From Agelas oroides (lineage: Eukaryota > Porifera > Demospongiae > Agelasida > Agelasidae), in the NCBI GenBank assembly GCA_949130485.1, contig OX422193.1:331501-395500 (forward strand): a DNA stretch of 64,000 nucleotides. Direction: 5' to 3'. This document shows positions 24,909-53,128 of the stretch, piece by piece. Each line of letters begins with the position of its first letter. Positions within the stretch are counted from its first letter, which is position 1. The position numbers and the translations under genes are program-made. Below the pieces are notes generated by a model. That model worked only from the letters and a program-made list of their open reading frames with translations, did not search any database and was not told the DNA's origin.

Positions 24909-26660
24909 GACAATTTTAATGTAGCGTTCCAGAAAGAAAATACAGAAATAAACTAGCATTTACAGCTGTGACAAATGTATTTGCGAATTAACTTAACACG
25001 AACAACTATGCACAGATCTTTAAACTTCAGCACAAACAACTTCAGAAACTATGCACAGATCACCTGTGTCAGCATAAAACCCGGAAACCTCGAAAACTAC
25101 TAAAACCGGTTGTAGAATAAGTCCTATTTCAAGCCACATATGTCGAACGCTGCGTGGGGCCCTGATTACTCATGAAAAGTAGTCATTCATTTCTCTAGAT
25201 ATGCAACTGTGAACTCCACTAATGTCCTTGATTTTCTGTCGTGTGGATGGCCTATAATGAGAGTGGGTCCAAATATTTTAGAAAAAATGGTTGGGGGGGG
25301 GGGGGGGGGGGAACCAATTTCAGGGGGGTCCAAATTAAACGTGACAGGCCTACCCCCCTCGGGGCCCAGACCCCACCCTGCTCACGCGAGTACGCACGAG
25401 ACAACCCCACCCCACGTGCCACCCCGGGGATCCGTATTTTTGATGAACGTGATGTTAGATTAGCCTCGTTCCCAGGCCCCGCCCAGCTTTCCGTCGCTTA
25501 TTAGTACGGCTTTTCCATACTGCAAGCGACGGAAAGCTGGGCGGGGCCTGGGAACGAGGCTAATGTTAGATTTGTGCTGCGGTTACATGTACAAACCCTT
25601 TGCAAAGTAGCAGCCGGTCTCCCTCGCAGGACGTTAGTGCACCAAGATTCATCATAGAGACGTTACTGATCAACGACCTAAGGCTAAGAACGAGGGATAG
25701 GCTCCCGCACATTATGCTTCATTGCCACCCTATTATGCTATTCCTTTATTCCCGACAATTTTACCAATTATGCTCAGTTATGTTCCCCATTATGCCCAAT
25801 GTGTACACAGCGTTTACGTGACAGTTCTGATCGCGTAGGGGCCTTGAGTCGGTCCAGCAATGAGATGTGGACTCCGTCTCCTTGGGCATACTACCCAAGC
25901 TCTGTTGCAAGAGTCAGACGTTGCGATCCTCGTGCTAGTAGTACCTAGCGTGAGCGGTATATACGTATACTACAGTTACTTTACACGTGGCATTCGGTTC
26001 AAAGGTTAAAAAATTATGTAAGCGCGCGTTGCGCTTACCTATTATGCTCGAAATTGTGCTTATGTTAATAGCTGCCTATTGTGCTCTAAATTATGCCGGC
26101 ATAATGTGCGCATGTCTAACGAGGGATAGCCAGCTACCGCCCGTCGTTTGTGGACCCGTTTTGCAGCAGATAATTTAGCCATAGATAATAGCCTCCTTCA
26201 TTCCAGCAATATAATTGACTGTTTTCCCTCCAGCCTCTTGATATGCCAGTCGATACTGGGCACCGGAAAGCTCAGGCGTACGCCTACCGAACAGGTCCGA
26301 AGGCCACAGCAGTACATCTACCGCTATTGTCAACGGAGCGGCTGTCATCTGAGTCATGCCACCCCTGGCTACGCCATCCTGTTGTCTGCGTGTATTTTCA
26401 TACTTCCAATGTTTGTTCAACATGTGCAGCTAACGTACCACATGAACCCCATCCCTGTCAACCAGTGGTATGTTCATCCGTGTCATGATCACATGACTTT
26501 CAGCCACGCCCCCCTGGTGCTCAGCAATGTGCTACCAGCCATGGTCCTCCAGAACAGTGTAACAAGGTCAAACATTAAGTGTCCATCATCCCACTCCAGT
26601 ATCCCTTATATTTTTCCTTTGCGTCCTGTCCTGTTCGGTCTGGGAAGGGGGGTGGTGAAG
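24909..26660. other. Upstream region of the first 2A-Death gene
   Basis: Contains a poly(G) run (25293-25310) and a perfect long-arm fold-back at 25461-25562 (TAGCCTCGTTCCCAGGCCCC...). 25590-25640 and 26490-26600 are homologous to 48020-48065 and 48185-48300, upstream of the second gene (GCAAAGTAGCAG, ACTTTCAGCCACGCCCC, CCATGGTCCTCCAGAACAG). An open frame from 26148 runs in phase into the 2A leader. The paralogue has a frame break relative to it, so I treat this part as 5' UTR. Confidence 0.55.
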
Positions 26661-26721
26661 ATGGTGATGGTTCTGCTATTACTGTTGAGTGGGGATGTAG
26701 AGATGAACCCAGGACCTGTCG
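26661..26721 (+). other. 2A (ribosome-skipping) leader peptide, copy 1
   Basis: In-frame ATG followed by a short leucine run and SGDVEMNPGP, then VG and a GTGAGT donor. All residues of the D-x-E-x-N-P-G-P consensus are present. By known 2A chemistry, the ribosome would skip the bond between G and the final P, releasing a ~18-residue peptide. Confidence 0.8.
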
Positions 26722-29700
26722 GTGAGTGTATGTAGTGCAAGATTGAAGAAGTGGAAACTGGATACTGAAATTCACCAGTTGGAAGTAGAAATTGTGTGGG
26801 AGTGTATGGAAACAAGGGCTAGTGTATATAGTACAAGGTACCATTATTGTGTCATTTCTGATCTCCCAGGAAACAAGCTGACCTTGGATGACTTTGGTTG
26901 TGTTCTGGCGGAGCTTTTGGATGTGTCTTCACTGTGGTACTTCCTTGGAGTTCAGCTGAAAGTGAGGGTTGGGACACTAGACAGCATCCAAGCACAGTTC
27001 CCTGACCCTAAACGCCAGCTCCTGGAGATGCTCAAGACTTGGTTGACTACCGGTGACAACACTAGCTGGAAGACTCTTACAAATGCTCTCAGGAGTCGAC
27101 TTGTGGAAGCAAGTCAGTTGGCCAGTGTTCTGGAGACAAAGTACTGCCTGGTGGCAGAAAATGAAGTAGTAGCTGCTGAGGGAAATCCTGCAATTATTGT
27201 TCCCTCTCATCCTCCACTGTTTGATCAGATGGTACCCATCCAACAATTGGTAGACGTGCAAGAGAGTAAGTGGAAGACTAAAATTTGAGTTTGCACACCT
27301 CAAGTAGCTACTGAATTGTGGCTCCTTTACTAGCTATACCGTAGTCTCGCGAAAAAGGGCCCACTTACGAAAGAGCGCCCACCCCCCTCTTTGGCAGACT
27401 TGTAAGGTGCTCCGCCCATGGGCCCTTTTTCGCGAGACTACGGTATAACCTTAGGCCCAGCCAATCCGGATTATTACCAAGCGCCTTAGAGCGAGGATCT
27501 GAATCGGGGATCTATTCTCGGGATGTGCGTGTGTACGTACGTACATACATATGTGTCGGTCACGCTTAGGAATGTCAATTTGCGGTATCGCTTAGGAATG
27601 TCAATTTGAGGTCATGCTCAGAATGTCAGTTTGCGCTCACGCCCGATATTGCATTACACGACGATGTCCGGACGTTTCTTGGCAACAGAGGACGGAGAGG
27701 ACGGTGCAGCTGGCCCTTCACAACGTACGTATTTGCGAAGCTAAGTGCATAAATGAGTGCTGAACACAGCTGACTGCTGGTGACTCTGAGAAAAAAAAAG
27801 CAGGGAGAAGTCAGCCCACCGTAGAAGCCAAGAGAGCGGCAGAAAAACAAGAAAGAGTTCAGAAGTAGAAAGCACGTATTGGAGATTCTTCACAAGCCAG
27901 GTATTTAGGCTCACTCTTCACATTGCCGTTGTTTTGTACTGTTCTTTGGACCCCCACTAAAAACGAGGAACGCCTGACACCTGCGCAGCGCGCCCCATCC
28001 GCGCATGGCGCTTGGAGTGGCGTGAGGCTTGCATACTCCTATATACCAGGAGCTTATGAGCGCGAAACTACCATACATTAGTTGGTCCTATCCTCTGCCG
28101 AATTTGGCGCCTCCAAAACGCGCCTTATAAGGTAGCTGCATGTATATGTTTGCACCATAGATAATAGAGACTCGTAACCGGGATTGGAAACGCGGAGCGG
28201 AAGTCGCATGTAACACAATACATTAACACACGGGCACTCCGCGTTGCACAGGAAGTGTTGAATTTTTCACCTTTTGGACGCAGCTGCTACAAGATTCAGA
28301 GACGACCAGAGGGAGAAAGAAGACTGCTTTCCGCACTTGGGTGGTGAATGCGTTGCTGGGAGGTAAGCAAGATGACTGTCTGGGAGGCATAATTTCGTAG
28401 TGTGCATTAATTTGGGTAGCTGTTGTTCAAATACGCGTTTAATGATGTGGTGATTGGGAGTTGAGTGTGGAATGGACATGAATTTTGCTCTTTGTGTACC
28501 TATATTTCCCCTTGAGTAAGTCTTTCTTGGTGTTTGAGCCTTCCCTTAGATTAGTCTGAGTGTGGGCTTTGTGATGATGCCAAGTTTGTGAGCATTCTGC
28601 TCCTCTAAGTTATACTATGCTCAAAGAAAGTGTGAATCTCTGATGTACTGTGGCTCTAGTTTTCCCTCAACTTTCTGTACCTCTCATGGGGCTGTTAAAT
28701 GCCTTAATGGAAAGAATTTGGTGTTTGCATGATCTTCCACCTTTCTGTTATGGACTCAGACCATTGTGATATTTGGGGACACTTGTGATCCTGTGATATA
28801 TTGGAAAGTTTATGATAATATATTATGTTTCCACGGACTCAATGTATGTGGTTTGCAATCGTACAGGATGGGAAGAAAGTTCAGGCTTCACCACAAGAAG
28901 AAGCATTATGACCCAAGTTCTCTTGTAGTATCTATTCCCCTGAGTGCTAGAGAAATTCTTTGGCCTACAGCGACAGCGAGGAAGAGTGAACGAGAACCCT
29001 AACGTGCAGGAGTTCTGTAAGAACACTCAGGCTCTCAGGGTCATAAACTGTTCATGCCTGGGCCCTGTCAAAGGCAACTGCAGGGGAAGCAACAAGAAGG
29101 AGATGACTGCAGCTGACTTGGAGGAGGAGAACCAGCCTCTCAGGAAGAGAAAAGCCACTAGGCCTACAAAGGGAAAACAGTCACTGACACAATAATTCTG
29201 TACATGTATTATTATTAACCAGTGCACTTTGATGACAACAACCATACAAGTCATGAGAACTATAGCCATTACATGTTGTCTTGTGTAGTTAGTTTCCGTC
29301 TGAGGGACTTGGATTTACCAGAGTCATCGCGCTGTCGTGCTTGAACCGCCATCTACCTTCCAGATCAGCTTCACAACCAACAACAGATATCCTTGTTCAA
29401 GTTTATTTACGCTAAATTAGAAAGGCATTCACTTCCGGAGCGCAACGCGGAGTGTAGTGCGAAATATCAGCGTTTCCAATCCCGGTTACGAGTCTCTATT
29501 ATCTATGTTTGCACCTACTTCGTTAAGAAGCCAAGCAGGTGGCTATTGTCACAGCAGGCGGGCTCTTGAGAATTATGAAGCATTATTTGTGCCAAAATTG
29601 CTCAATACGGTATAGACAATACGAAGGCAATGTCTCACACGCAACGCGAACGGTCAATACCATTCGGAAGGCGATTTATATCGTTTGGAAGGCGGTCTAT

Positions 29701-32700
29701 ATCATTTGGAAGGCGGTCTCCACCATTCGGAAGGCAGTCTGTGCCACTCTAGGAGGCTGGCTATGGCTTAGCTAACGAGCGAGCGACGGATGCTGTCCAG
29801 CTTCTGCGGCGCGGAGTTGAACCCGTGACAGGGGCACGGCGCGCGTCCACAGTGGTCACGTGTCCACAATTCAGACCCCGAACGTAGGAACATCGCGTCG
29901 ACTCTCGGTAATGTGTGTACTACTGTTTCAAAAGCAGCAGAGAGAGAAAGTTGAAGAAGAGTGGTCCCCATGTTCTGTGGATGTTGTAGACTAGTGTTTC
30001 ACAGCCATCATCCTGATTTTGTGATGACGATCAGGTATTGGATGATGTTGGAAGGAGCATTGGATTCTTGACTTGTTCCTTGCGAATATCAAATTTGGGG
30101 CGACCTGTTCCTACTCGTTTGGTACATAACTTGTATGGCAGGCCTCCTCCATGCTTTCCTTAATTTCAGATAGTAATCCAATGTATAGTAGCAAAAATCT
30201 GTGAAGTTGATGGCTGTGAAACACTAGCACATCCACAGAACGTGGGGACCACTCCTCTTCAACTTGCTCTTGAAACAGCAGTACACACATTACCAAGAGT
30301 CGCTAACCCCTGGGAAAGTGAGGACGCCATGTTCCTACGTTCGAGGCCTGAATTGTAGACACGTGACCACTGTGGACGCGCGCCGCGCCCCTGCCACACG
30401 TTCAACGCCGCGGAAGGACAGCTCGCTCGTTAGCTAAGCGATAGCCGGCCTCCTAGAGTGGCAAAGACCGCCTTCCAAATGGTGGAGACCGCCTTCCGAA
30501 CGATATAGACCACTTTCCAAAAGATATAAACCGCCTTCCGAACGATATAAATCGTCTTCCGAATGGTATTGACTGTTCGTGTTGCGTGTGAGACATCGCC
30601 TTCGTATTGTCTATACCGTATCGAGCAATTTTGGCACTAATAATGCTTCATAGAGAATCCATAGTAGTCACGGTAGAAACCTCAAAGCTCGTTAGCACGA
30701 GTAGGTTAAAACCCATATAAGGGGGCATATTGAAAAGCAGGAAATGGAAATGAAACGGAAACTGGAAACGGAAACCGGAAACTGGAAACGGAAATGGAAA
30801 CGCAACTTCTTAGCTGTTGTAGTCCTAGCAAGATTTGCACGTTGTCGTACCTAGGGATCCCAGTGCTCTCCCTGCCTCCAGTTTTTGGTTTGCTAGCCTA
30901 GCTAGCCTAGCCTCGTTGCCTTCCCTTCCCTTCGCCTGCCCCAGTTGTAGTGTAATGTGTGATTGTTTAGTATTTCTCACTTGGGTGGTACAAGTCATTG
31001 TTTATGTTCTCAGCTGTATTCTATCTTTGGTGTTCCATACTTAGTAACTAGCTGATTCTGTATAAATATGCCCTGTACATGTCCTGAGATTAATGTTTGA
31101 ATCAGAACACTACACCAGTATTTCTGCATTGGCAAGTATTGGGGGGGGAGGCAATGGTTGGGATGGGCCTATTGTACCCAGGGCCTGGGTATGAAGCCAT
31201 AATTTGCACACTGCAAGCAATCAAAACTGGAAGTAGGTCTAGGAATGAGGCTGCAAGAGTAGGAATGCTGGCCTTGTTCCAAAACGAAGTAGGTTACTCT
31301 CGTTGTCAGATTGCAACTAGTCTCATGCCCACACTGTCTCACATGTGAACCAGACTAGATTGCAACATTGCTTGCCACATGAGTGATAGTCAATCACACT
31401 AAAAGCAGTAATCACAAAGCACAGTACAGGAGTAAAGCAAAGCACATGACTCATAAAGCCAGTCCTACAACCATTGCTAAGCACAATACAAGAGTAATGA
31501 CGAAGCACACTATGAAGAAAACGTTGCACCAGTGATTGGTGCGTTTCATGTTCCCATTTCCGTTTCCAGTTTCCATTTCCAGTTTCCGTTTCATTTCCAT
31601 TTCCTGCTTTTCCATATGCCCCATATGGGCAAGGCGCGTTTTTTTAAAGTGTGATTCGATACAGGATGGGGGTTGCTGGGTTGAACCTGCATGACAAATA
31701 GTCCAGCCCCTCAGCCCCAGAAGCATTAGTAATTAGAAGAAATTCATGAGCTGGCCCTGTAGCTACGATTTTTTGCCAAACATCTGTTTTCATTTTGAAG
31801 GATTTTTTTCATGTTTAATATTCCCAGATTATTCAATCAAGTGCAACCACAACCCCATAATTATAACTTGAATCAGCATGGACAGTTCAGTAGCTGTTTA
31901 GGTGTCCTTACTATGTCGTTGTGATATAGCTTGGAGTACAATTTTCAATGGACGTGAAGCTATATACTCTAACAATGAGTGCTAAATCAGACTGTGCATG
32001 GTATAGCAGCTAGCAATGCCTTACCGTACTGTCAATAGCATTGATTTAATTGCGTATCACCAATGCCCCAGTCAGTGGTCAGTCTGGGAACGAGACTATG
32101 CATGCATCATTATGTGTACATAATTAGAAAATGGCGTCCTACACAATAGACGGCAGCTCAAGTGTGCTGTGAACCCCTCTAATGCAGACACCATGGGACT
32201 ATCGCTTGTGTCCGGAATATGGAGGTGTCTGTACTTCACAGGCTTCTGCTAAATTTCCGGTAGGCGTGGCAATGCATACTCATGCTGTTGAGTGTTATGA
32301 AGCTGCGTTCAAGAGCTCTCCCTTGCTGCATGTACGCTGGCCAGAAAAGGCTTGTACTATTCGTACCAGTGCTATTATGATGTACAGTTGTTGAATCAAG
32401 TGGCGGTGGTGGACAACTTTGTGGTTTATTCCCACTTCGTCAGTTCCCACTTTGTCAATTCCCACTTTGTCAATTCCCACTTTGTCATTTCCCACTTCGT
32501 CAATTCCCACTTCGTCAATTTCCACTTCGTCAATTCCCATTTGGTCAATTCCCACTTTGTTGATTCAATTGACAAAGTGGGAATTTCAAAAAATGTGATA
32601 CTGTCTATATCGACTAGAAATACAACAACCTTGAAAATTCCATAGATCTATATAGATGGTTTCAGCTTCGCAGAGTTTCTCTAAGGCAACAAGGCGGTTT

Positions 32701-35700: not shown

Positions 35701-38700
35701 AGTATGTAGGGCTTCCAATAGCGCATTAGCGTACATGGCTTCCGTGACCGCAAGAGAAGCTGACGTCAAGGAGGAAAAGGACGCCATCCGTCAGGTGATC
35801 TTTAACAACAAAGAATTCAAGCAATAGCTGTGTGATTTCAGTGAACTGTACCCAGGTGTAGCCTCGTTCCCAGGCTCTCCCCACTAAGATGGGGGAGGGC
35901 CCTTCTTAGCGGGGAGAGCCTGGGAACGAGGCTATATACCCAGGTAAGCAAGAATGGGAAGCATTTGCCACAATTGTGTCCACTACACAATCTGCCAGAG
36001 ACAATGATGATGCAAATATAAACTTTTCTAGCCAGCACGACGTTCAGCAACCTGGAGTAGAAACTCTCAGAGAAAATGATGTCATAGAAAAAATGGAAAA
36101 CTTTTGTGGCTACCGACAATGGTGTTGAGATAGCAATGACACAGCCCTAATGGAAAAACTGAACCAACCAACATCCACTAACTCACTGGCAATGTGTAAA
36201 AAACTACCATTTGAAGCTCTCATGCAAACAGGAAATATTATGTCATCACTTTTATATCGTTATTAGTGTAATGTCATGTTGTTTACAACAAAAATTGATA
36301 AACCATAACGGTGATTGTGTACACAAAAAATTGCATGTTAGCCTCTTCCAAACCAATTCATTGTTTCTCACCCCTAAGCAGAAAACTAGATGTGGGTTGG
36401 CCAAGAATTGAAGACTTTCAATTACGAGGTCATTCCTGTGTGAATAATGTACAATGCTGCCTTTGTCATTTCTACACTTGGATGAGGCACAGTAAGCAAA
36501 CAGCAACTTTACTTCTTACTAAACGCCACGCCAACTTCGATACCTCGACAGGTGCGAAAGGGTACGCGCGCGTGTGTACGAACTGCGCATGCGCAATTGT
36601 AGTCCTCGGCATACTGCTTGCTCAGGCTCGCCCCACAATGCCCTGCATTCGTCTAGTAGCCTCGTTCCCAGGCCGTTCCCGCCTCCAGTTTTGATCGCTT
36701 GCAGTATAAAAATGGAGGGGAAGGCCTGGGAGAAAGGGTCACGTGCATGACGTCAGGTAGACGTGAGGGGGGCAGTGCCCAACGAAGAATCTCGAGGTCC
36801 TTCTTGTAATATCTTGTCCAAGAACTTGAGACTGTAACGTTTGAAAGGCAGCATCAATACAGCTCGTTGTTTGGTAGACTCGAGTCTGATCAACGCAAAG
36901 TTTGTGAGTTACAACGATCGGGCACCACCCCCCTCACGTCTACCCTCACGTCTACCTGACGTCCGCACGTGACTCTTTCTCCCAGGCCTTCCCCTCCGTT
37001 TTTATACTGCAAGCGATCAAAAACTGGAGGCGGGAACGGCCTGGGAACGAGGCTACATAATAAAGTGTCTTACCCAGCTGTTCTCATACCAGTCTGGAGT
37101 CTGGCAAGTGCAGCCTCCAGGGCCAGAGAGGAACCACTTGCAGCCATTGCAAAACCACATGGTTGACACAATTACAGCGCAAAACGCTTAAACTACACGC
37201 TTGGAATTTCATTATAGTGTTAATTGGCGATGCGTTTCCGCAATGAATATAGTTATAGCTCCAGCTAAGCAACTGTCTGGAGTATGTCTGGATGAATATT
37301 TGTGAAGCATTTGGTTGCGGTAGACACATGTATTATTTCCAAACAAAAGAGGTGGGCCTAGACTGATGTACTACCTTAAAAGCTTTTAACGCATTCACGG
37401 TTGAGTTTTGGGGGTTTTTGCTTACGCATTGCATATATTGCGTGTCCGCACCATCCCTACATAGAGAGTCTACTGATTCATTGATGCATACTTCCCATGT
37501 TTCACTAGTAGACATGCACATACATACATTGCTAGGTATCCCAGGGTAGGGTGTGTTTGGCTAGTGATCTGTCTCAACTTTCCACCATTATTCAGCAACA
37601 TGAAGTTGTACATTGCAGTTCTTACTGAATGTCCACTATATTCATTCAGATCCACATACTGTGCAAGACCACATTCAAAGGTTTGAGAGGAAGTTTATCA
37701 GTCTCTTTACAAAAGCCTACCAAGAGGTGGCTCAAGCGATGAATCCCTCCAGTTTCCTTTCTCTTGTCACATATGTGCCCATATATATCAGCCCGCCACC
37801 TGCATCAAAGATTCATCAAGGAGAATTTGACCAACATTCCACCACCAGTAACCTTTGAGAAGATCTGGGCCACTCTGAACATGTACTGGAACTTTCTCAA
37901 CTATGGTTTCTTGGAACATGTTATCTATAATTGCACATCTGTTGACTTGAACCGACAGATGCAGGAGTACATTCATGAACTTTCCATATTCAAGAGAAGA
38001 ACTCGGCTCTGTGACTTTATAAGGAGCTGGCCATGTGATAAAAGACCACCAAAAAGCAGTCTCAAGAAACTGGTCTTTAAAATGTGGAAGAGATGGTCCC
38101 AGTGCACACTACACGATGTGGAGTTATTCAAGAAAGCTCTCATCCACAAGTTCTTTCTACCAGAAGTTGATTTTCTTCTTTGCAAGGCTAAAAAGGTGTG
38201 TGTCTGTGTCACATGGCTCACCTCTCCCTCCATTGCGACACTGCTGCAGCAGAAAGTTGAGACTAAATTCTTCAAGAAGCATGGCATTGATACAGTGACC
38301 ATTGATACATTGACCATTGAAAGTAAGTGTATACTGTATTTTGGTTTCAAGATGCTCTTCTCAAATTGCAGCTAGCACAGTTATGGCTTCCATTAGCTGT
38401 GAATATGTTAACAGTTGCCATATAAGGTCTTTGTCTATGTGGTGCCCATTATCTACATGTAGATACATGCTATTTTGTTTACATGAAAAAGGCCTTGATT
38501 TTTTTTTAATCAGCACCACTTTCAATGTGTCTGTCTTCTGTCTACCTGACATCATCTGATGTCATGGCATGTGATCACTTTAGCCTCATTCCCAGGCGCT
38601 CTGAGTCCTCTCCCTCCGACGCGCCTGGGAACGAAGCTAGTGATCACTTCTCCCTCCATATTTATATACCAGTATACTATGAGTACGCATGCGTATGATG

Positions 38701-41269
38701 TCTATGCACATCGCGCATGCGGGTGAGGCGCGCGGAGCAAGTGTCAGAAATTGTGCACTGCTGGTTTAGTGGGAGCCAAAAGAACAATACCTGGCTTGTG
38801 GAGACTCTACAGTACGTGCTTTCTACTTTTGAACTCTTTCTTGTTCTCTTGTTGCTCTCTTGGCTTCTATGATGGACTGACCTCTTTGCTTTTTTCTTTG
38901 TCAGAGTCGCTAGCTGCGTTGGCTGCGTTCAGCACTCGTTTTTGCACTTGACTCCGCCAAATACGTACATTGCGAAGGCTCAGCTACGTGTCTTCCCAGT
39001 CCTCCATCGCCAAGAATCGTTGTCCCCCCAACTCCGCCCTCCATTGACATCCTTGTGTAATACACGTTTCAGTGACGCCTGATTCATGAGCGTGAGTGCA
39101 AATTGACATTCCTAAGCATGACTGCAATTGACATTCCTAAGCATGACCGGCATGTACGTATGTACATACGTACATACGCACATCCTGAGAATAGATCCCC
39201 GATTCAGAGCCTCGCGCTAATGCGTTCAGCAATTACTGTAAGTGACATAATCTTGTAAAAATTTCTGTGCTATCTCTTGTGTAATTATTTTTTGTGCAGC
39301 TTTGGCTAACTCATAAGTAGGAGTATACACAAGGCAGCAGTATGGCAAGATTATAAATCCAGTGGCGTAGGAACCGTAGCGGCCGTAGCGGCTTTGGCCG
39401 CTACACTTTTTAGGCCGTAAATTAATATTCATAACCTGCATGCTATAAGTTAGCTCAAGCTAGCCTCGTTCTCTGGGAGCGAGGCTAAGGTCAAACAGCC
39501 TCTTCGTTGCATCAGTCTCATATGCAGTTACATGCGTACATTTCCGATTAAAGTACACTATAAGGTGATCGAAATCTTGGCAGTGAGATGGCTCGGTACG
39601 AAGCTAATGCAGATTTTCGAAGAGACTACTACAAGCGACGAAAGCTAGCCTGGCGGCGGTCTGCTTGGAACGACGACGAAGTCAGTATAATCTGTTTTCC
39701 ACATAAATTGAATATTGTACTGGAGGGTTGGTAAGGTCTGAGATTGAGGCTAGAATATTATACACCGTTGAAAAAAAAGGCTTTATTTTGCAGTCTAAAG
39801 GTGCACACTTTGAAAAATTTCGCCGCCGCGCTACGCGCGGCGAAATTACATCCCATTTTTTAGGGGCGCTTCGCGCGGCTCAGCATGGCCTCTACACTTC
39901 AAATTTGCTTCCTACGCCTATGAAATCCTAATCCCCACTTAGAACTGTTCCATTTCCCTCATAAAGGACGGAAGAATACTGGCGATATAAGTATGATTTA
40001 CACAAAAGTTATAAGCATGATATAGTGTTGACAACATAGCCTTGTTCCCAGGCCTACCCTGTTTTTTGTTCTTCAGTTTGCATTCAGTATTATACATGGA
40101 AGCGAACTGAGACCGGCAAAGAAACGGGGAAGGCCTGGGGTCATTCAGTATAATGCATGGAAGCGGACTGAAACCGGCGAAAAACATCCACTCACAATCA
40201 TGTGAGTGGATGTGAGGTGGACATAGGGGGTAGGAGCCGACATTCAAATACATACGAACTAAGCTCGAAAGTGAGTTTCTTACTGGTCAAGAGGAGTAGT
40301 TTCAACCACACTAACGTTTGAAGTCCAGGTAGAGTGCTGAAACAGATGATCCAGTGCATTGTTTTTGTGGCTGGGCCCCTCCCTCCTACATCCACCTCAC
40401 GTCCATCTGACGTCATTCACGTGATGAAGGAGCCCAGGCCTTCCCTGTTTTTTTTTTTTTTTCGCAGCTCTTCCGCTTCTGTGTATTATACTAAACACAC
40501 ACAAACCGAAGAACAAAAACGGTTGAGGCCTTAGAACGATGTGATAATTGTTCTTTTTGTCTCCATCCTCTAACCCTCTGCAGTACTGCTGGACACACAG
40601 TCAGTGAAACAACGTGTCAAGGAGTTTGAAAGTCGTTTTATTGAACTTACAGAATGCACACATGAAACATTGGTAGAGAAAAGCATCAGTGTGTATGACC
40701 TTTATGACCTGCTGATGTCAGTGAATACTTATGGAACATATGAATACGAAAAGTTTATTGATAGACATCTGATGAAAATGGACAAAGAAACAACATTCCA
40801 TGACCTGTGGGTAAGGCTCAGTGACTGTTGGAACTTCCTGAACTTTAACCTTTTGAAACATGTAATTACCAGATTTGGCAGTGAAGACTTCAAGCAGAAG
40901 ATGGAGTCCTATGAACATGATCTCCAGTCCTTTCAAAAGGTTGCCAGGGTGTGTGACTTTATTGATTCCTGGCCAGGGGGGAAGCAATCGCCTCCAGAGG
41001 CAGAATTGAAGCTTTATGTCGAGCTTAAATGTGACTGGGACACCTACACCCTGGAAGATTTTCAGATATCAAAGGAAGGCATTAGTAAATTATTGGAACT
41101 ACCTAAGTTTTCCCTTGGGCTAATTAAGATTGAACAGACTGAACAAGGCTGTATCATCACCTGGCTCATGTATGTGGAGGTCTCAGAGGAGGTCTCAGAG
41201 AAGATAAAGGCATTTAATTTACAGGAAAAAAACATCACGATTGCCCAAGAATCCTCAGTGGCTAGCTGA
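26661..41269 (+). CDS. 2A-leader Death-domain protein, copy 1 (frameshift in exon 3)
   Basis: Four exons: 26661-26721, 26870-27265, 37650-38322, 40584-41269, all joined in phase 1. Exon 1 encodes MVMVLLLLLSGDVEMNPGP, a hydrophobic leader with a canonical 2A motif (DxExNPGP). Exon 2 is a Death domain (TLDDFGCVLAELLD, LLEMLKTWL, SWKTLTNALRS). Exons 3 and 4 each encode one copy of a ~200-residue helical module seen also in the 48-53 kb gene (FLNYGFLEHVI, FKRRTRLCDFIRSW; FLNFNLLKHVI, FQKVARVCDFIDSW, GCIITWLMYV). Exon 3 has one extra base near 37780-37800, so its halves are in different frames: either a pseudogene, an allele, or a sequence error. The second intron (10.4 kb) is packed with transposons. 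Stop TGA at 41267. An adaptor or sensor role in innate immunity or cell death is inference from the Death domain. Confidence 0.75.
27330..27448. mobile_element. Fold-back MITE with ACCGTAGTCTCGCG ends
   Basis: Starts ACCGTAGTCTCGCGAAAAAG and ends with its complement CGCGAGACTACGGT, between TA dinucleotides. About 115 bp with ~30-bp arms. It lies in the large intron of the first 2A-Death gene. Confidence 0.7.
27470..27910. mobile_element. ~440-bp element, inverted copy of 38750-39230
   Basis: Contains CTGAATCGGGGATCTATTCT, TTAGGAATGTCAATTTG words and a TTCAGAAGTAGAAAGCACGT segment. All are matched in reverse complement at 38750-39230, on the other side of exon 3 of the same gene. Non-coding. 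Confidence 0.65.
28155..29508 (+). mobile_element. P-element-like DNA transposon remnant with 39-bp terminal inverted repeats
   Basis: Ends are 39-bp inverted repeats (CATAGATAATAGAGACTCGT... and its complement at 29470-29508). Inside, an open stretch at 28944-29195 reads LEKFFGLQRQRGRVNENPNV then QEF..NTQALRV and GPVKGNCRG. This resembles the C-terminal region of P-element/THAP9-type transposases (ENxFxxxRxRG-xx-NP...F...LxV). No full transposase is present, so it is a defective internal deletion copy. Family assignment is by pattern only. Confidence 0.55.
29568..30657. mobile_element. Element with ~440-bp terminal inverted repeats
   Basis: Left arm 29568-30005 and right arm 30210-30657 are inverted copies, starting GAATTATGAAGCATTATT... 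and ending with its complement. The arms include tandem ~22-bp units with GGAAGGCGGTCTATATC words. The centre is ~200 bp. No transposase. The arms differ by several percent, so the insertion is not recent. Confidence 0.8.
30705..31630. mobile_element. Element with GGAAATGGAAAC terminal inverted repeats
   Basis: Left end ACCCATATAAGGGGGCATAT with GAAAAGCAGGAAATGGAAAT, and right end the complement, at 31540-31628. The terminal arms consist of short GGAAACGGAAACTGGAAAC subrepeats. About 920 bp, non-coding. Confidence 0.7.
31631..33480. other. Intronic stretch with a small minisatellite
   Basis: Part of the large intron of the first 2A-Death gene. 32428-32570 is a 15-bp tandem repeat (CACTTTGTCAATTCC) of about nine units ending in a small hairpin. 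A GTAGGGATG word is at ~33035. No coding region is supported. Confidence 0.6.
33480..33560. mobile_element. Fold-back remnant of the TAGCCTCGT family
   Basis: Palindromic core CAGCTTCCCGTCGCTTGC / GCAAGCGACGGGAAGCTG, followed by GCCTGGGAACGAGGCTA. The left terminus has diverged. It shares its core with 25461-25562. Confidence 0.6.
33800..33935. mobile_element. Inverted-repeat element with TATAACCCA ends
   Basis: TCATATAACCCACCTATATA on the left matches the complement at 33905-33932. The inner palindrome (ACTTGATGGTTAATTAAAAC... and TTTTAACCATCAAGT) makes a near-complete hairpin. Non-coding. Confidence 0.6.
34645..35455. mobile_element. Inverted-repeat element with CATGTAGGGATGG arms
   Basis: Arms of ~150 bp, 34650-34800 and 35310-35455 (ACAAGTCACAAAAAAGTTTT and complement). 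Both contain GTAGGGATGG and CATCCCTACATC words. The centre has a ~150-bp direct duplication (CACTCCACAGCCTTCTACAT twice). Confidence 0.75.
35513..36645. mobile_element. Element with GGGGCGAGCCTGAGC ends and a nested insertion
   Basis: Left end TGGGGCGAGCCTGAGC and right end GCTCAGGCTCGCCCCA. Inside are a ~100-bp direct duplication (35587-35760, CACCCGCGCGCCGCGCTTGG twice) and a TAGCCTCGT fold-back at 35859-35934. The fold-back is inserted in TACCCAGGT, which appears on both sides. Remaining open stretches are short and unassigned. Confidence 0.6.
35859..35934. mobile_element. TAGCCTCGT fold-back nested in another element
   Basis: Hairpin TAGCCTCGTTCCCAGGCTCT...AGAGCCTGGGAACGAGGCTA. TACCCAGG on both sides is a candidate target-site duplication. 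Confidence 0.75.
36657..37056. mobile_element. 400-bp TAGCCTCGT-family element with ~85-bp inverted ends
   Basis: Ends TAGCCTCGTTCCCAGGCCGT and complement. Arms include TTTTGATCGCTTGCAGTATA. The centre holds GACGTCAGGTAGACGTGAGG and its partial complement. Non-coding. A good candidate for the long form from which the short hairpins derive. Confidence 0.8.
38581..38639. mobile_element. TAGCCTCAT fold-back element
   Basis: TAGCCTCATTCCCAGGCG and CGCCTGGGAACGAAGCTA around a short centre, in the intron between the two module exons. Confidence 0.65.
38750..39230. mobile_element. Inverted copy of the element at 27470-27910
   Basis: Reverse complement of the earlier copy over ~440 bp with indels (GCTTTCTACTTTTGAACTCT, GAATAGATCCCCGATTCAG). 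Together they flank exon 3 of the first 2A-Death gene in opposite orientation. Confidence 0.65.
39361..39917. mobile_element. Element with GTGGCGTAGGAA ends
   Basis: Starts GTGGCGTAGGAACCG and ends TTCCTACGCCTAT. Internal GGCCGCTACACTTTT and GCCTCTACACTT words match in inverse. Non-coding apart from short chance frames. Confidence 0.5.
40037..40545. mobile_element. ~500-bp element of the TAGCCTTGTTCCCAGGCC family
   Basis: Starts TAGCCTTGTTCCCAGGCCTA. The right arm has CCCAGGCCTTCCCTGTTTTT. Internal CACCTCACGTCCATCTGACG parallels the centre of the 36657-37056 element. It ends 40 bp before the last exon of the first 2A-Death gene. Confidence 0.6.
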
Positions 41270-48354: not shown

Positions 48355-48424
48355 ATGGTGGGCATGGTGGGGGCTCTACTGCTGCTGCCGAGTGGAGACA
48401 TTGAGACAAATCCAGGGCCTGTAG
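48355..48424 (+). other. 2A (ribosome-skipping) leader peptide, copy 2
   Basis: ATG, a short leucine run and SGDIETNPGP with every residue of the D-x-E-x-N-P-G-P motif, then V and a phase-1 donor (GTTAGT). Differs from copy 1 at the variable positions only (V/I, M/T). Confidence 0.82.
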
Positions 48425-51400
48425 GTTAGTGTATATCCTTGTACAGATGTACCACAGGAAGTTTTCTTCATTGATTAACCACACTATACTGTAGCATTAT
48501 CTCCTAAAACACTGTTAGAAGATAAGACTACAGCTGCAGCAAGGAGACACTGAGAAGAGGCAAATTGTAAGAATTGTAAGTAAGAATGGCTTAGTCTCAT
48601 TCCCAGGCTCCATTGCCAGACCCCTTCTCATTTTTTCGAAAGGGGTCTGGGTTCGAGACTAAGAATGGCCTTGGATGAAGCTTCAGCTACCTCCCTTCAA
48701 CAACTTTTTAGACCTTTCTCTTAGCAACATCAGAGTGTTGTCAAATGGCATAGTACCAACATGATGTAGCTGAACTCTGCAATCTGATTGGCACGCACTT
48801 TACAGTCCACACGGGACATGGCATTGTAAGCCATGTTGCCAGACCCCTTCTCGATTTTTCCGAAAGGGGTCTGGACACGAGACTAAGAATGGCCGTGGAT
48901 GAAGCTAATTATGCTGGTGTAAAACCTGCATTGTTTTAATAAAGGAATTTAGATGTTATGAGGCGAAAATAGAGGAAAGTGAAAAAGGCCGGCAGCCACC
49001 GGGAGTCGAACCCAGGACACCTGGCTTGTGCCGCCAGTGCTCTGCCACTGAGCTACGGCAACCGGACAACCACCAACCCTCACAATCCTCTATATGTACT
49101 GCACAGGTGGTACTGAATGCCTCAGTCGCACACCCGGGCGGCTCAACCACCAACCCTCACAATCCTCTATATGTACTGCACAGGTGGTACTGAATGCCTC
49201 AGTCACACACCCGGGCGGCTCAGGGCGGCTGCCCGGGTGTGTGACTGAGGCATCACAATCCTCTATATGTACTGCACAGGTGGTACTGAATGCCTCAGTC
49301 ACACACCCGGGCGGCTCAGGGCGGCTGCCCGGGTGTGTGACTGAGGCATTCAGTACCACCTGTGCAGTACATATAGAGGATTGTGAGGGTTGGTGGTTGT
49401 CCGGTTGCCGTAGCTCAGTGGCAGAGCACTGGCGGCACAAGCCAGGTGTCCTGGGTTCGACTCACGGTGGCTGCCGGCCTTTTTCACTTTCCTCTATTTT
49501 TGCCTCATAACATCTAAATTGCTTTATTTCCAGCTTGAGGCAAGATGCTCTGAGCTGCATTGTTTTAAAACACAGGCATGACTTTGGATGACCTTGGTTG
49601 TGTGCTGGAGGAGGTTCTGGATGTGTCTGGGCAATGGTACCAACTTGGGCTCCAGCTCACAGTGAAGACTGGGGCACTTGACAGGATCAGAATACAGTTT
49701 CAAAACCCCAGAGACCAGCTCTTGGAGATGCTCAAGATTTGGTTGAACACCAGTGACAATACCAGCTGGAAGACTCTTATAGATGCTCTCAGGAGTCGAA
49801 GTGTGGGAGCAAGTCAGTTGGCCGGTGTTCTGGAGAGAAAGCACTGTGTGATGGAGAGCCACCCTAAGGCTACAGTTTTTCCTCCTATTCCACAACCAGC
49901 TACCTCCCAACTTCCACCATATGCAGCTCCATCCCGTCCATACATCCTACCCATAACCCCTCCCTTACACCCTTCCCTATATGCTGGTGACTCCACTCCT
50001 CCACAACCTCCCACTGTAACCATGTACCAGCGAAAGTCCTACGTATCACATCCATGGATAGTAGAGGCACAAGAGTTGCCAACGCATTCCATTGGCCCAA
50101 GCTATTCACCAATGCCCAAGTCTCATGTTATAGTTCCCACAACTCCAGCTGTGACGCATTATATCTCAGAAGAGTTGCCAGTAATACGAAAGGCTCATGT
50201 TTCAGTTCCCACAACTATCCCTTTAGATTCCACAAGGGTACATAACGTGGAAGACCAAGTTCAACACTTTGATAGCAAATTCCGAAGCCTCATCAACAAA
50301 GCCTACCAAGAAGTGAATGGAAAAATGGAGTCTTCTGATTATTTCCTTTTCCATATTACGTGCCTACCAGCATCAACCCGTACTCAACATCGAAGCTTCA
50401 TTGAGAAAAAGTTGACCAGCATTCCACCACCAGTAACCATTGTGAATATCTGGACCATTCTGAAACTCTACTGGGACTTTCTGAACTATGGACTCTTGGA
50501 ACATGTTATCAATGTACGTGGAAGTGAAGACTTGAAACAGCAAATGCAGGAGTATGTACTTGAACTTTCCAAATTCAAGCAAACAACTCGAATCTGTGAC
50601 TTCATTGATAGCTGGTCAAGTAGAAGATATGGCCAAGTAGACAGTCTCAAGAAGGTAGTTGCCATGATGCAGATGGAATGGTCCCGGTGTACCTTACGTG
50701 ATTTGGAGTCATTCAACATAGATCTTGTTCACAAGTTCTTCTTGCCTGATTTTGACATTCAGCTGAAGTACTGTCTGGAGGATGTGGACAGAGGTATGTC
50801 TGCCTCTTCCAGTTGGCCTGAAACTAATGTTACCGCTTTCACAAATACACAGCACTTATGCTTCTGTGCGGTAAAATTAATTGACTCCTCAAAGGAAGAC
50901 GAGTCACTTAATTTTATCGCACATAGGCATAAGTGCTGTGTATTTGTGAAAGTGGTGACATTTAGTTGCGGGCCAACATTATATTATGTATAGCCACCTA
51001 TTTCACACACAGATCTTCTTGCCCTAATGTCTGTTATAGCTTCTCTTTGTCACTCAGTTGATTACGCAAAAAGATCCCACCTTCATTTGTTAGTTGGTAC
51101 GGGTATCAATTGAAATGAACTCAGCTTCCCTTTTTTAGAATGAAGATATTGCAGGCACTCTCACTTATATATAGTGTAGTATAGATGTGGTTATGTGAAA
51201 GTATTGGACAGTGAGACTTGCTGTAAATGCCAGTTGTATTGTAGCTATACTATCTCTCCGGGCCGCTTTCCTCCTTCCTCTCCAGTTGCTGATGACCCTA
51301 CTCTTCTAAAGACACCGCCCATACCCCCTCACCCTCTCACACCAGGTTAGACTTTAGTTACAAAAATGTGAGTAGTGTGATATCAATGCTGTCATTGATT

Positions 51401-53128
51401 TTAAAGGAAACCAGAGTATCATGTGATCATGTAACATCCTTCCTTGTTTAACTAATAAGACTAATTAACTAATTGACCCTCTATTGACAATCTATTTCCA
51501 GTTTCAGCAAAGTTTAATGATTTCAGGTTTTGTGGTATGCATGTACATCCTGTAGGCCCTATTTGTGGAGTAGAGGTAATTGGAGAAACAGAATTCATGG
51601 TTCCGAACCAAGGTGGCTTATTTGAGTGGAAAGGGTATGGACTTAGGCTTCAAGTTCCTGCAGGCAGCCTTTCAGTTGGCATGGGAGAGTGCAGGATCAA
51701 CATCAGGGTGAGTCTCTCTGGACAGTTTCAGCTACCTGAAGACTCAGACCTCCTCAGCCCTGTCTTCTGGATCACAGCACCCTGCAAATTCACAAAGCCA
51801 ATCACACTAGAAATCCAACACTGTGCACTCAGAGAAGATGAGACAGTGTTGTCTGACTTAAGTTTTGTCTCTGCCAACTGCTCTCAGCGGGAGCTTCCCT
51901 ACCAGTTCAGAAAGGTGGATGGAGGTGTGTTCACTAAGCATAGTTCCTATGGTAGCATCCAACTGAGCCACTTCTCTGGGAATGGTGTCATTGGGAGAAA
52001 GGGGGGCCCACGGTCGTACTGTGCACATCTATACCACAAGATAAAGCAGATTTATGACTGGAGGTTCTACCTTGTCATCACACAAAACATTGATGCACAA
52101 ATTACGGTGAGTTTTATTGTACACTGGAAAGCAGTAGAGTTTCATGTTACCATGCATGTTGTTACATTTTACTCCATCATGGGTTGCAGGCTGTGAAGTG
52201 CCACTATGATCATTTTGCTGAGTGGGACATTTCGTTAAAGATTGGGTTTCAGAAAAGTGAGATCACTCTGGATATTCCTGAAGGTTTACAGGAGGGATGG
52301 AAGATTACTCCAATGTCTTATCCTAGTGTAAGTTACCTTGCAGCTAAAGCAGTGATATGAGATCTATAACATACCTATGGTATGAATTAACACATTTCGT
52401 GGTGTGTGGTTCATACTGTGGTAACTCATGGGTGGATAATTATGGGTCTTATCAAAAATTATTGTGTACTTGTATATAGATTGCTAGAAAGGAAGTGGAT
52501 GAGTTTAGAGAAGGACAGTGGATCCCTCATTGTGAGCTGATGCTAGAGTGGAAAAAGAAGGATGAAACGCCAGAACGGCTGCAGTATAAAGTCAAGCTAA
52601 ATGGAGCCAGAGCACCCAAAGACTTTTTTCAACTTGTCTTGGACCCAGCAGAAGGTAGCCAACCATAAGTATTCCCAGGTCCAGTTTTTGATTGATTGCA
52701 GTATGCAAAAACGTTTTTGGTGGATACTGCAAGCAATCAAAACTGCATGGAGCTGGGGAAGGCCTCAGAATGAGGCTAGTCTGCATTGTCATCGTAAATT
52801 TATGTGTGTGTCGAATCATACAGGGATAGTTCCAGGAAAGAACAGTAGCCTATGCAAGCCAGAGATGAAGGATCTAATGGATGCCCTCTACCATACGGTG
52901 GCAGACAAATGGGAACACATTGGCATCTACCTCCACCTCCACATGGCCACCCTGAAGGCCATTTCTGATAAGCAACAGCATGACCCTCACAAGTGTCTTC
53001 TTGAGATGCTGGGGGCGTGGCTTAAGAGACTCCATCCTCCTGCCACCTGGTCTGCAATCATTGAGGCTGTGGAGTTTCTAGGGGAAGAACAGCTTGGGGG
53101 ACAACTTAGAGAGCAGTACCAACTCTGA
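48355..53128 (+). CDS. 2A-leader Death-module-ZU5-UPA-like-Death protein
   Basis: Seven exons: 48355-48424, 49576-50793, 51286-51345, 51502-52106, 52190-52327, 52480-52654, 52824-53128; 856 residues, phases all consistent. Exon 1: MVGMVGALLLLPSGDIETNP-GP, a hydrophobic leader plus 2A motif. Residues ~24-115: Death domain (TLDDLGCVLEEVLD, QLLEMLKIWL, SWKTLIDALRS). ~120-240: proline-rich linker. ~245-425: unassigned helical module (FLNYGLLEHVI, FKQTTRICDFIDSW). ~465-600: ZU5 domain (GGLFEWKGYGLRLQVPAGSL, PVFWITAPCKFTKPITLEI). ~610-750: UPA-like region. ~770-856: second Death domain (DKWEHIGIYL, CLLEMLGAWLKRL). ZU5-UPA-Death is the plan of UNC5, PIDD and ankyrins; here it lacks a transmembrane segment. 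Death-fold signalling is inferred. AATAAA signals lie at 53244 and 53265. Confidence 0.88.
48592..48884. mobile_element. Two short AGTCTC-type fold-backs in the 2A intron
   Basis: 48592-48661 (TAGTCTCATTCCCAGGCTCC ... GGGTTCGAGACTA) and 48838-48884 (CCAGACCCCTTCTCGATTTT ... GGTCTGGACACGAGACTA). Each has a CCCCTTCTC stem. Non-coding. Confidence 0.55.
48992..49062 (-). tRNA. tRNA-like unit (possible SINE head), minus copy
   Basis: 71 nt that fold as a cloverleaf: acceptor GTTGCCG/TGGCTGC (one mismatch), D stem GCTC/GAGC with box A TAGCTCAGTGG, anticodon stem CTGGC/GCCAG, loop GGCACAA, T arm CTGGG-TTCGACT-CCCGG with box B. A TTTTT run follows as Pol III terminator. The loop has G instead of U at position 33, so a true translating tRNA is doubtful; read literally the anticodon is CAC. 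No 3' poly(A) or CCA is seen. Confidence 0.5.
49080..49395. repeat. Palindromic array between the two tRNA-like units
   Basis: CACAATCCTCTATATGTACT / GGTGGTACTGAATGCCTCAG / CACACCCGGGCGGCTCAGGG blocks occur three times in one direction and once or more in the other, forming long inverted repeats centred on GGCTCAGGGCGGCTGCCC. With the flanking tRNA-like units, the whole 48956-49510 region is one large inverted repeat. Confidence 0.8.
49404..49475 (+). tRNA. tRNA-like unit (possible SINE head), plus copy
   Basis: Inverted partner of the unit at 48992-49062: same cloverleaf and box A/box B, with one change in the T stem (CTCACGG). Followed by CCGGCCTTTTTCACTTTCCT, which contains a Pol III-type T run and is shared with the minus copy. 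Confidence 0.5.
50838..50965. mobile_element. Fold-back MITE at the module-exon donor
   Basis: ACCGCTTTCACAAATACACA ... with its complement at 50925-50965, ~60-bp arms around AATTGACTCCTCAAAGG. Located 45 bp after the donor at 50794. The reading frame happens to stay open through it to 50993. Confidence 0.7.

Follow-up and report, generated by a model that had tools for sequence, protein, structure and literature searches.

A large family of host genes in the sponge Agelas oroides carries a leader exon whose 3' end is a 2A (StopGo) motif. Most inspected copies of this motif precede a Death-domain exon, although the use of StopGo in cellular genes is described as rare in the accessible text of Li et al. 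2026 (PMC12846837). The motif is the 3' end of a modular leader exon. StopGo there likely frees the leader, which is of membrane type, from a Death-domain receptor that stays in the cytosol, and each gene of the family probably makes two separate proteins. Leader anatomy, intron phase, motif conservation and domain order were read directly from the DNA. The window (the whole analysed stretch of 64,000 nucleotides) holds two copies, gene A and gene B, and the finding is firmer for the family than for the gene A copy. Genome copies and sites are labelled with L and a number, and database proteins with P and a number.

The motif in the genome and in database proteins

The pattern GAYRTNGARNNNAAYCCNGGNCC (D[V/I/M]ExNPGP) has 285 sites (159+126) in the 259-Mb genome and its reversed form has none (0+0); therefore the motif is not a product of chance. 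A stricter pattern, consisting of the octamer with CCR proline, one G-initial codon and G/GTRAG, is present at 29+29 genome sites, with 0 in the control. Among the first 100 octamers listed of the 285, 23 lie in matches to the leader type of the window, 52 in matches to a second leader type (MGID-type) and 25 in neither. The latter include two retrotransposons (L073 and L074) and the Death-bearing L023 and L027. Genome-wide, the two leaders give 93 and 75 matches, pieces included; some genome copies are without the motif or without the frame. At least 75 octamers lie inside the two leader families, and all together there are probably well over a hundred.

The start of the second leader type (MGID...WRARIGL), searched alone, has 71 genome sites (control: 0). 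An octamer follows 44 of the 47 starts situated on C1 and on as much of C2 as the octamer listing covers; it is in frame in 42 cases, mostly at 375 bases, and three starts are without it. The 2A motif was not used in finding these starts.

In the protein database, the L070 query found 201 proteins. Among the best 120 of them, 101 matched the leader and 100 reached beyond the core, with the motif kept in 99 of these 100. The MGID profile gave 759 proteins, and the motif is kept in 118 of the best 120. These leaders were picked by similarity and not by motif, although the queries included the motif. The exceptions among the listed leaders are P0056 (DIETNPGL), P0181 (DVKTNPGP) and P0220 (no motif). 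NPGP is thus conserved in the relatives, while the sequence-only reading had named a lack of such conservation as evidence against itself. The database is clustered at 90% and looks genomic. Since it holds 759 related proteins at this clustering level, other individuals or species probably carry leader sets of their own. One database leader, P0125, has 93 matches in the genome, with at most 92% identity to any full-length copy and 96% over one piece.

Leader anatomy and constraint

In the leader exon, a hydrophobic segment in the first half or in the middle is followed by a second one at the end, then by D[VI]ExNPGP and, usually one codon later, by a phase-1 donor. According to hydropathy, scored on those of the 120 proteins listed per search that were long enough (96 and 118), the first segment starts some 115 residues ahead of the core, or 72 in the MGID family, while the second adjoins it. 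The family leaders comprise about 125–165 residues and not the 26 residues of the SpNLR2A kind; with the octamer included, most leaders of the window type have 140–171 residues and those of the MGID type 132–133. The sequence-only reading had described exon 1 as a short leader of 20 residues with a Met-Leu run, which did not hold for the family, with its long leaders and another hydrophobic segment far upstream. Such a leader changes the targeting argument drawn from the 26-residue leaders of sea urchin.

The upstream frame is long in most of 32 copies (30 among the first 100 octamers listed and the two copies of the window). In 14 copies of the window family, pairwise comparison gave 145 gaps in the last 120 bases 5' of 2A, and every one of them has a length divisible by three. 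The corresponding counts (multiples of three versus others) are 109 versus 36 and 93 versus 18 in the next two 120-base bins upstream, and 37 versus 73 just after 2A. Seven copies of the MGID family show zero frame-breaking gaps in the last 360 bases. A wider scan took in 53 distinct copies, of which L036 and L037 were probably placed wrongly. It recognised the first hydrophobic segment in 35 copies, and in 34 of these an in-frame Met precedes it. Given the in-frame gaps and these in-frame Mets, the leader is read as coding far upstream of position 26661 of the window.

The start codon of the family may be an AG/ATG, one of the later ATGs, or may lie in an upstream exon. A pyrimidine tract with AG stands directly 5' of the ATG in 27 of 28 copies, all of which were picked for an MP-type start. 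In the wider scan AG/ATG is in frame in 22 of the 35 copies; L019 and L021 read ATT at this place, and L050 has the ATG out of frame. The first in-frame Met of eight C9 copies comes later than the AG/ATG position.

No part of the leader is better kept than the 2A motif. The dN/dS ratio is 0.49 in the first part, 0.79 in the residues 20–40 before the core, 0.41 in the last 20 residues and 0.070 in the octamer. It was calculated for genome copies found by similarity, because copies found by motif favour the core; 28 of the 30 were used, the two window copies being left out. In a profile comparison the two leader families have only 32 aligned columns in common, i.e., the hydrophobic run, 2A and the few residues that follow; the two types are otherwise unrelated, both ending in 2A. 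Structure prediction for two leaders (pLDDT 58 and 61, pTM 0.26 and 0.31) gave helices over the hydrophobic segments as the only believable feature. No Pfam match above cut-off was obtained for the leaders, for the helical domain described below or for the 600-residue frame of L078, and no NCBIfam match for the two leaders.

Downstream Death exon and cargo

A Death exon lies no more than 1.5 kb downstream in 31 of the 32 copies inspected first, the exception being L024; these copies (30 listed first and two in the window) come mostly from C1 gene clusters and are not a random sample. Upstream of 2A, Death was found in none of 62 stretches of about 1.0–1.4 kb, some places being counted twice (0/30 and 0/32). 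Among the copies found by similarity, Death is present within 1.5 kb in 20 of 30, a set that includes gene A, gene B and seven places already seen. The other ten are eight C9 copies, L051 and L060; in one C9 copy the Death exon is about 2.5 kb away. Seven further motif sites, chosen from elsewhere in the genome, are divided between a Death-like frame (L071, L075 and L077), retrotransposons (L073 and L074) and neither of them (L072 and L076).

In each of the 38 intron-bearing copies scored, gene A included, the acceptor leaves two bases, which fits a phase-1 donor; the donors were read from the sequence letters, and four intronless copies were set aside. In these four distinct copies (L009 = L066 = L070; L052; L053; L068), as well as in 11 database proteins, the query itself among them, 2A runs into Death without an intron. 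The intronless copies and proteins show the common reading frame without any splice assumption. A spliced leader-Death query found 185 proteins, and no spliced copy was recognised among the 120 matches listed. The 67 newly found proteins were judged by coverage alone, and the junction was read only in those common to the L070 search. The best match of the spliced query, P0018, was rejected as a transcript, being a genomic frame with the intron read through; P0001–P0008, its other high and wide matches, are intronless and were rejected as spliced forms.

The genes behind the leader differ in their later domains. Downstream of leader and Death, L079 has NACHT (4e-16) and LRR, L080 has ankyrin repeats and L070 has LRR. 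The Death domains of L070 and L080 are just under the Pfam cut-off, that of P0008 is also under it, and that of L079 is not listed at E 0.001 and has 3.9e-33 with the family HMM. The Death calls in L070, L079, L080 and P0008 thus come from the family HMM built in this analysis. In L079 and L070 the leader stands before the Death domain in an NLR gene, according to the order of frames on one strand. From such order and strand we infer that the leader, Death and NACHT, LRR or ankyrin frames belong to one gene. In L035 and L031 the exon after Death is 79% identical, but their leaders, which belong to the unrelated families, align over 21 residues at 2A only; on these grounds leader exons appear to have been exchanged between gene bodies.

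A recurring helical domain (...WNFLNYxLLEHVI...FG...), recognised by eye, is situated between Death and NACHT, ankyrin or ZU5. It occurs in L035, L031, L070, L079 and L080 and, in the window, in two open frames (Table 1) and at 50240–50780.

The two copies in the window

The window contains two D[VI]ExNPGP octamers, one in gene A and one in gene B (start at 48397), both on the + strand and both followed by a Death exon; PHD, endonuclease and reverse transcriptase, which follow 2A in retrotransposons, do not follow here. A 2A-type leader in a host gene, proposed by the sequence-only reading, is borne out by the family copies in phase with a Death exon and by the conserved NPGP. Its letters and coordinates for the gene A frame from 26661 (MVMVLLLLLSGDVEMNPGPV) were found again, with every residue of the octamer in place. 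The core fits (D/G/C/N)(V/I)ExNPGP and, by comparison of letters only, the LLLLLSG that precedes D agrees with the L-rich (A/S/C)G-D class of StopGo. The Met at 26661, taken as the start in that reading, is probably not the start used by the family, since 34 of 35 relatives have an in-frame Met far upstream, before the first hydrophobic segment.

Table 1. Features of gene A and gene B in the window.
Feature	Position	Strand	Remarks
Gene A, region homologous to the family leader exon	26234..26721	+	DNA alignment (five relatives and window copy B), genome matches, protein match
Gene A, ATG matching the AG/ATG start of the relatives	26243..26245	+	One base out of frame with 2A (26694-26243 = 451, remainder 1 on division by 3)
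Gene A, first exon ATG in frame with 2A	26409..26411	+	Gives a 95-residue leader before the octamer
Gene A, hydrophobic run MVMVLLLLLSG, adjoins the 2A core	26661..26693	+	LLLLSG-like class of viral StopGo contexts (PMC12846837, accessible text)
Gene A, 2A/StopGo octamer DVEMNPGP	26694..26717	+	Predicted break between Gly (26712-26714) and Pro (26715-26717)
Gene A, predicted intron, phase 1, GTGAGT...CAG	26722..26869	+	Matching acceptor phase, as in 38/38 intron-bearing copies
Gene A, Death-domain exon	26870..27265	+	Pfam PF00531 E 1e-5; family HMM 3.4e-37
Open frame with the helical domain that comes after Death in relatives	37743..38375	+	Similarity to L070/L079 frames by eye
Second open frame with the helical domain	40574..41269	+	Similarity to L070/L079 frames by eye
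Gene B, leader end from in-frame Met, MVGMVGALLLLPSGDIETNPGPV + G	48355..48424	+	Donor GTTAGT (weaker)
Gene B, exon with Death domain, linker and helical domain	49576..50793	+	Pfam Death 5.5e-8; borders by eye
Gene B, ZU5 domain	51591..51842	+	Pfam ZU5 5.4e-8, residues 39-122 of the frame from 51477
Gene B, C-terminal Death-like domain	52871..53089	+	Pfam Death 0.0082, under curated cut-off; family HMM 1.9e-18 (frame)

The leader exon of gene A is preceded by the acceptor-like CCCTCCAG, which ends at 26233, and its 3' end reads ...NPGPV + G at 26721. The predicted donor is ...GTCG/GTGAGT, and the predicted acceptor, ending at 26869, is CTCCCAG/GAAAC. As to the join of 26721 to the Death exon at 26870, which the sequence-only reading had put in phase, the phase was confirmed in the DNA; the predicted splice would give NPGPVGNKLTLDDFG... 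across the intron. The Death domain of gene A scores 26 bits against a curated Pfam cut-off of 22.6.

Gene A is a poor representative of the family, being out of frame near the counterpart of the start. In the alignment this offset comes from a single-base difference some 45 bases downstream of 26243. From 26310 to 26721 all internal gaps with respect to each of the five relatives are multiples of three, and ATGs in frame with the octamer are situated 5' of it at 26409, 26442, 26493, 26541, 26661 and 26667. The database protein P0016 aligns to the gene A leader from residue 15, and to other copies likewise from residues 9–22.

The two open frames with the helical domain are probably later parts of gene A and constitute a candidate link; they have no Pfam match above cut-off. 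The NACHT/LRR part of gene A was not found in the window. Between the Death exon and these presumed later exons there is a large imperfect inverted repeat (29574–30652; arms of 167, 135 and 90 nt, 88–90% complementary). An element at 28156–29507 has flanking 41-nt inverted repeats, 98% complementary and 1270 nt apart.

The octamer of gene B (48397–48420) is SGDIETNPGPVG, and its Death domain (33.3 bits in Pfam) is above the curated cut-off. The gene B leader aligns only from residue 73; 5' of this residue there is no match in the 2A frame. In both genes the front end of the leader appears damaged, with 2A and the Death exon kept, and both leaders may use an inner ATG as a start or may be decaying. 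Two tRNA-Val (CAC) predictions in opposite directions (48990–49063 and 49403–49476) lie in the predicted intron 1 of gene B and are perhaps tRNA-derived repeats.

Comparison with known systems

The closest likeness is to SpNLR2A of the sea urchin Strongylocentrotus purpuratus (Roulston et al. 2016, PMC4981915, accessible text), where an N-terminal hydrophobic stretch with D(V/I)ExNPGP is found in numbers on genes of the Death-NACHT-LRR type (85/241 in one count). The 26-residue N-terminal form of 2A accounts for 14 of 87 NCBI entries, and SpNLR2A6 was estimated to be about 80% active (PMC4981915). In contrast to this leader of 26 residues, those of A. oroides, with about 125–165, form two families with conserved upstream parts; they differ also by the additional upstream hydrophobic segment and by introns as bounds in most copies. 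The cargo here, unlike in the SpNLR2A comparison, also includes ankyrin and ZU5-Death proteins.

The core (D/G/C/N)(V/I)ExNPGP, (A/S/C)G before D and the LLLLSG-like run are features in common with the viral L-rich 2A/StopGo group, of which motif 6 is active in vitro in rabbit reticulocyte lysate (Li et al. 2026, PMC12846837, accessible text). The host genes differ from viral StopGo in being multi-exon, and in most of them an intron interrupts the frame one codon past the predicted break.

APE-type non-LTR retrotransposons with 2A have been described (Odon et al. 2013, as cited in the accessible part of PMC11512398), and this genome contains elements of that kind. L073 (C1:25005300-25008800) and L074 (C2:8721500-8725000) have a hydrophobic stretch and 2A before a PHD finger, with an endonuclease and a reverse transcriptase after the PHD finger in L074. 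As in the host genes, 2A opens the frame or comes soon after its beginning (judged from L074). They differ in cargo (PHD, endonuclease and reverse transcriptase, not Death) and in having no intron after 2A.

Death-NACHT-LRR genes are numerous in another sponge as well, comprising 25 of 126 NLRs in Dysidea avara (PMC12909245, accessible text). The accessible main text of this paper contains none of the terms '2A-like', 'NPGP', 'skipping' and 'signal peptide'. No report of 2A in sponges was recognised in the open-access literature searched.

Alternative explanations

For the locus in the window, the chance that gene A belongs to a real family but is itself a decaying pseudogene, in which 2A and the Death exon persist and no working leader is made, comes close to even but stays below it. 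The counterpart ATG at 26243 is +1 out of frame, and the exon has no in-frame ATG before the first hydrophobic segment, unlike 34 of 35 relatives. The next frame that can be recognised lies about 10 kb beyond the Death exon, across inverted-repeat elements, and gene B is also damaged at the front, with a weak donor. However, decay does not readily account for gaps that, from 26310 to 26721, are all multiples of three against five relatives, nor for the canonical donor, the fitting acceptor, the intact Death exon and the in-frame ATGs. Other copies, including the C9 group, match P0016 only from residues 9–22, so that the very front may be dispensable or the start may lie elsewhere.

A very improbable alternative for the family is that selection keeps the octamer because a signal peptide or membrane segment ends there, and not for StopGo. 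Death, NACHT and ankyrin proteins act in the cytosol. The same octamer ends two unrelated leaders, and NPGP is kept letter for letter (dN/dS 0.07, against 0.41 in the neighbouring 20 residues), for which a signal peptide would offer no reason, even though hydrophobic segments precede the octamer in nearly all relatives listed and the sea urchin leader of like kind acts as a signal sequence (PMC4981915, accessible text). It is hardly credible that non-LTR retrotransposons with the same leader inserted beside Death genes and left the 2A sites behind as remnants; as a full account of the family this is contradicted. Two of the seven further sites are such elements (L073 and L074), and L074 has a short Met-Leu-run leader. 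But 75 of the first 100 octamers listed lie in matches to host leader exons, which show coding constraint and a fixed phase, and where inspected they are mostly followed by Death and not by PHD or reverse transcriptase. By eye, the leaders of the elements and of the host have only the 2A context in common. The origin of the motif is a separate matter: that the host family took 2A over from a retrotransposon and has retained it since is conceivable, though rather unlikely. Both kinds coexist in the genome, and in both a long frame has 2A at its start or close to it, but no homology is shown beyond the short 2A context, and for so short a motif an independent origin is as easy (also the view in the accessible text of PMC4981915).

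Proposed mechanism

In the favoured reading, release of the leader by StopGo, splicing would join the leader exon to the Death exon, and during translation 2A would stop the formation of the Gly-Pro bond, so that the leader is released as a protein of its own. The receptor would start with Pro and stay in the cytosol. The ribosome exit tunnel holds some 30–40 residues; therefore, by the time NPGP is translated, the upstream hydrophobic segment would already have emerged from the ribosome, with the second segment still inside. The sea urchin leader, unlike those of the present family, would sit wholly inside the tunnel. With or without the break, the leader could thus be directed to the ER membrane; in the rare unbroken product, the receptor would be tied to the membrane.

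A joint reading of these elements as a two-protein unit, in which StopGo couples a membrane peptide to an immune receptor and the receptor reports the state of the translating ribosome, is improbable as a whole. A virus or stress would alter elongation or release at NPG/P, the unbroken receptors would be tied to the membrane, and their Death domains would cluster and signal. If this were true, the conserved upstream part of the leader (CxLMLPM..., MGID...WRARIGL) would be a functional protein and not a throw-away signal.

The benefit to the host of detaching a receptor from its own leader in translation can be tested on many natural variants, of which the intronless ones can be cloned as they stand. 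More octamer clusters lie at C3:325-820 kb, C10:3.93-4.11 Mb and C3:5.9 Mb. Leader types beyond the two described occur at L072, with no Death-like frame seen downstream, and at L071 and L077, where such a frame follows.
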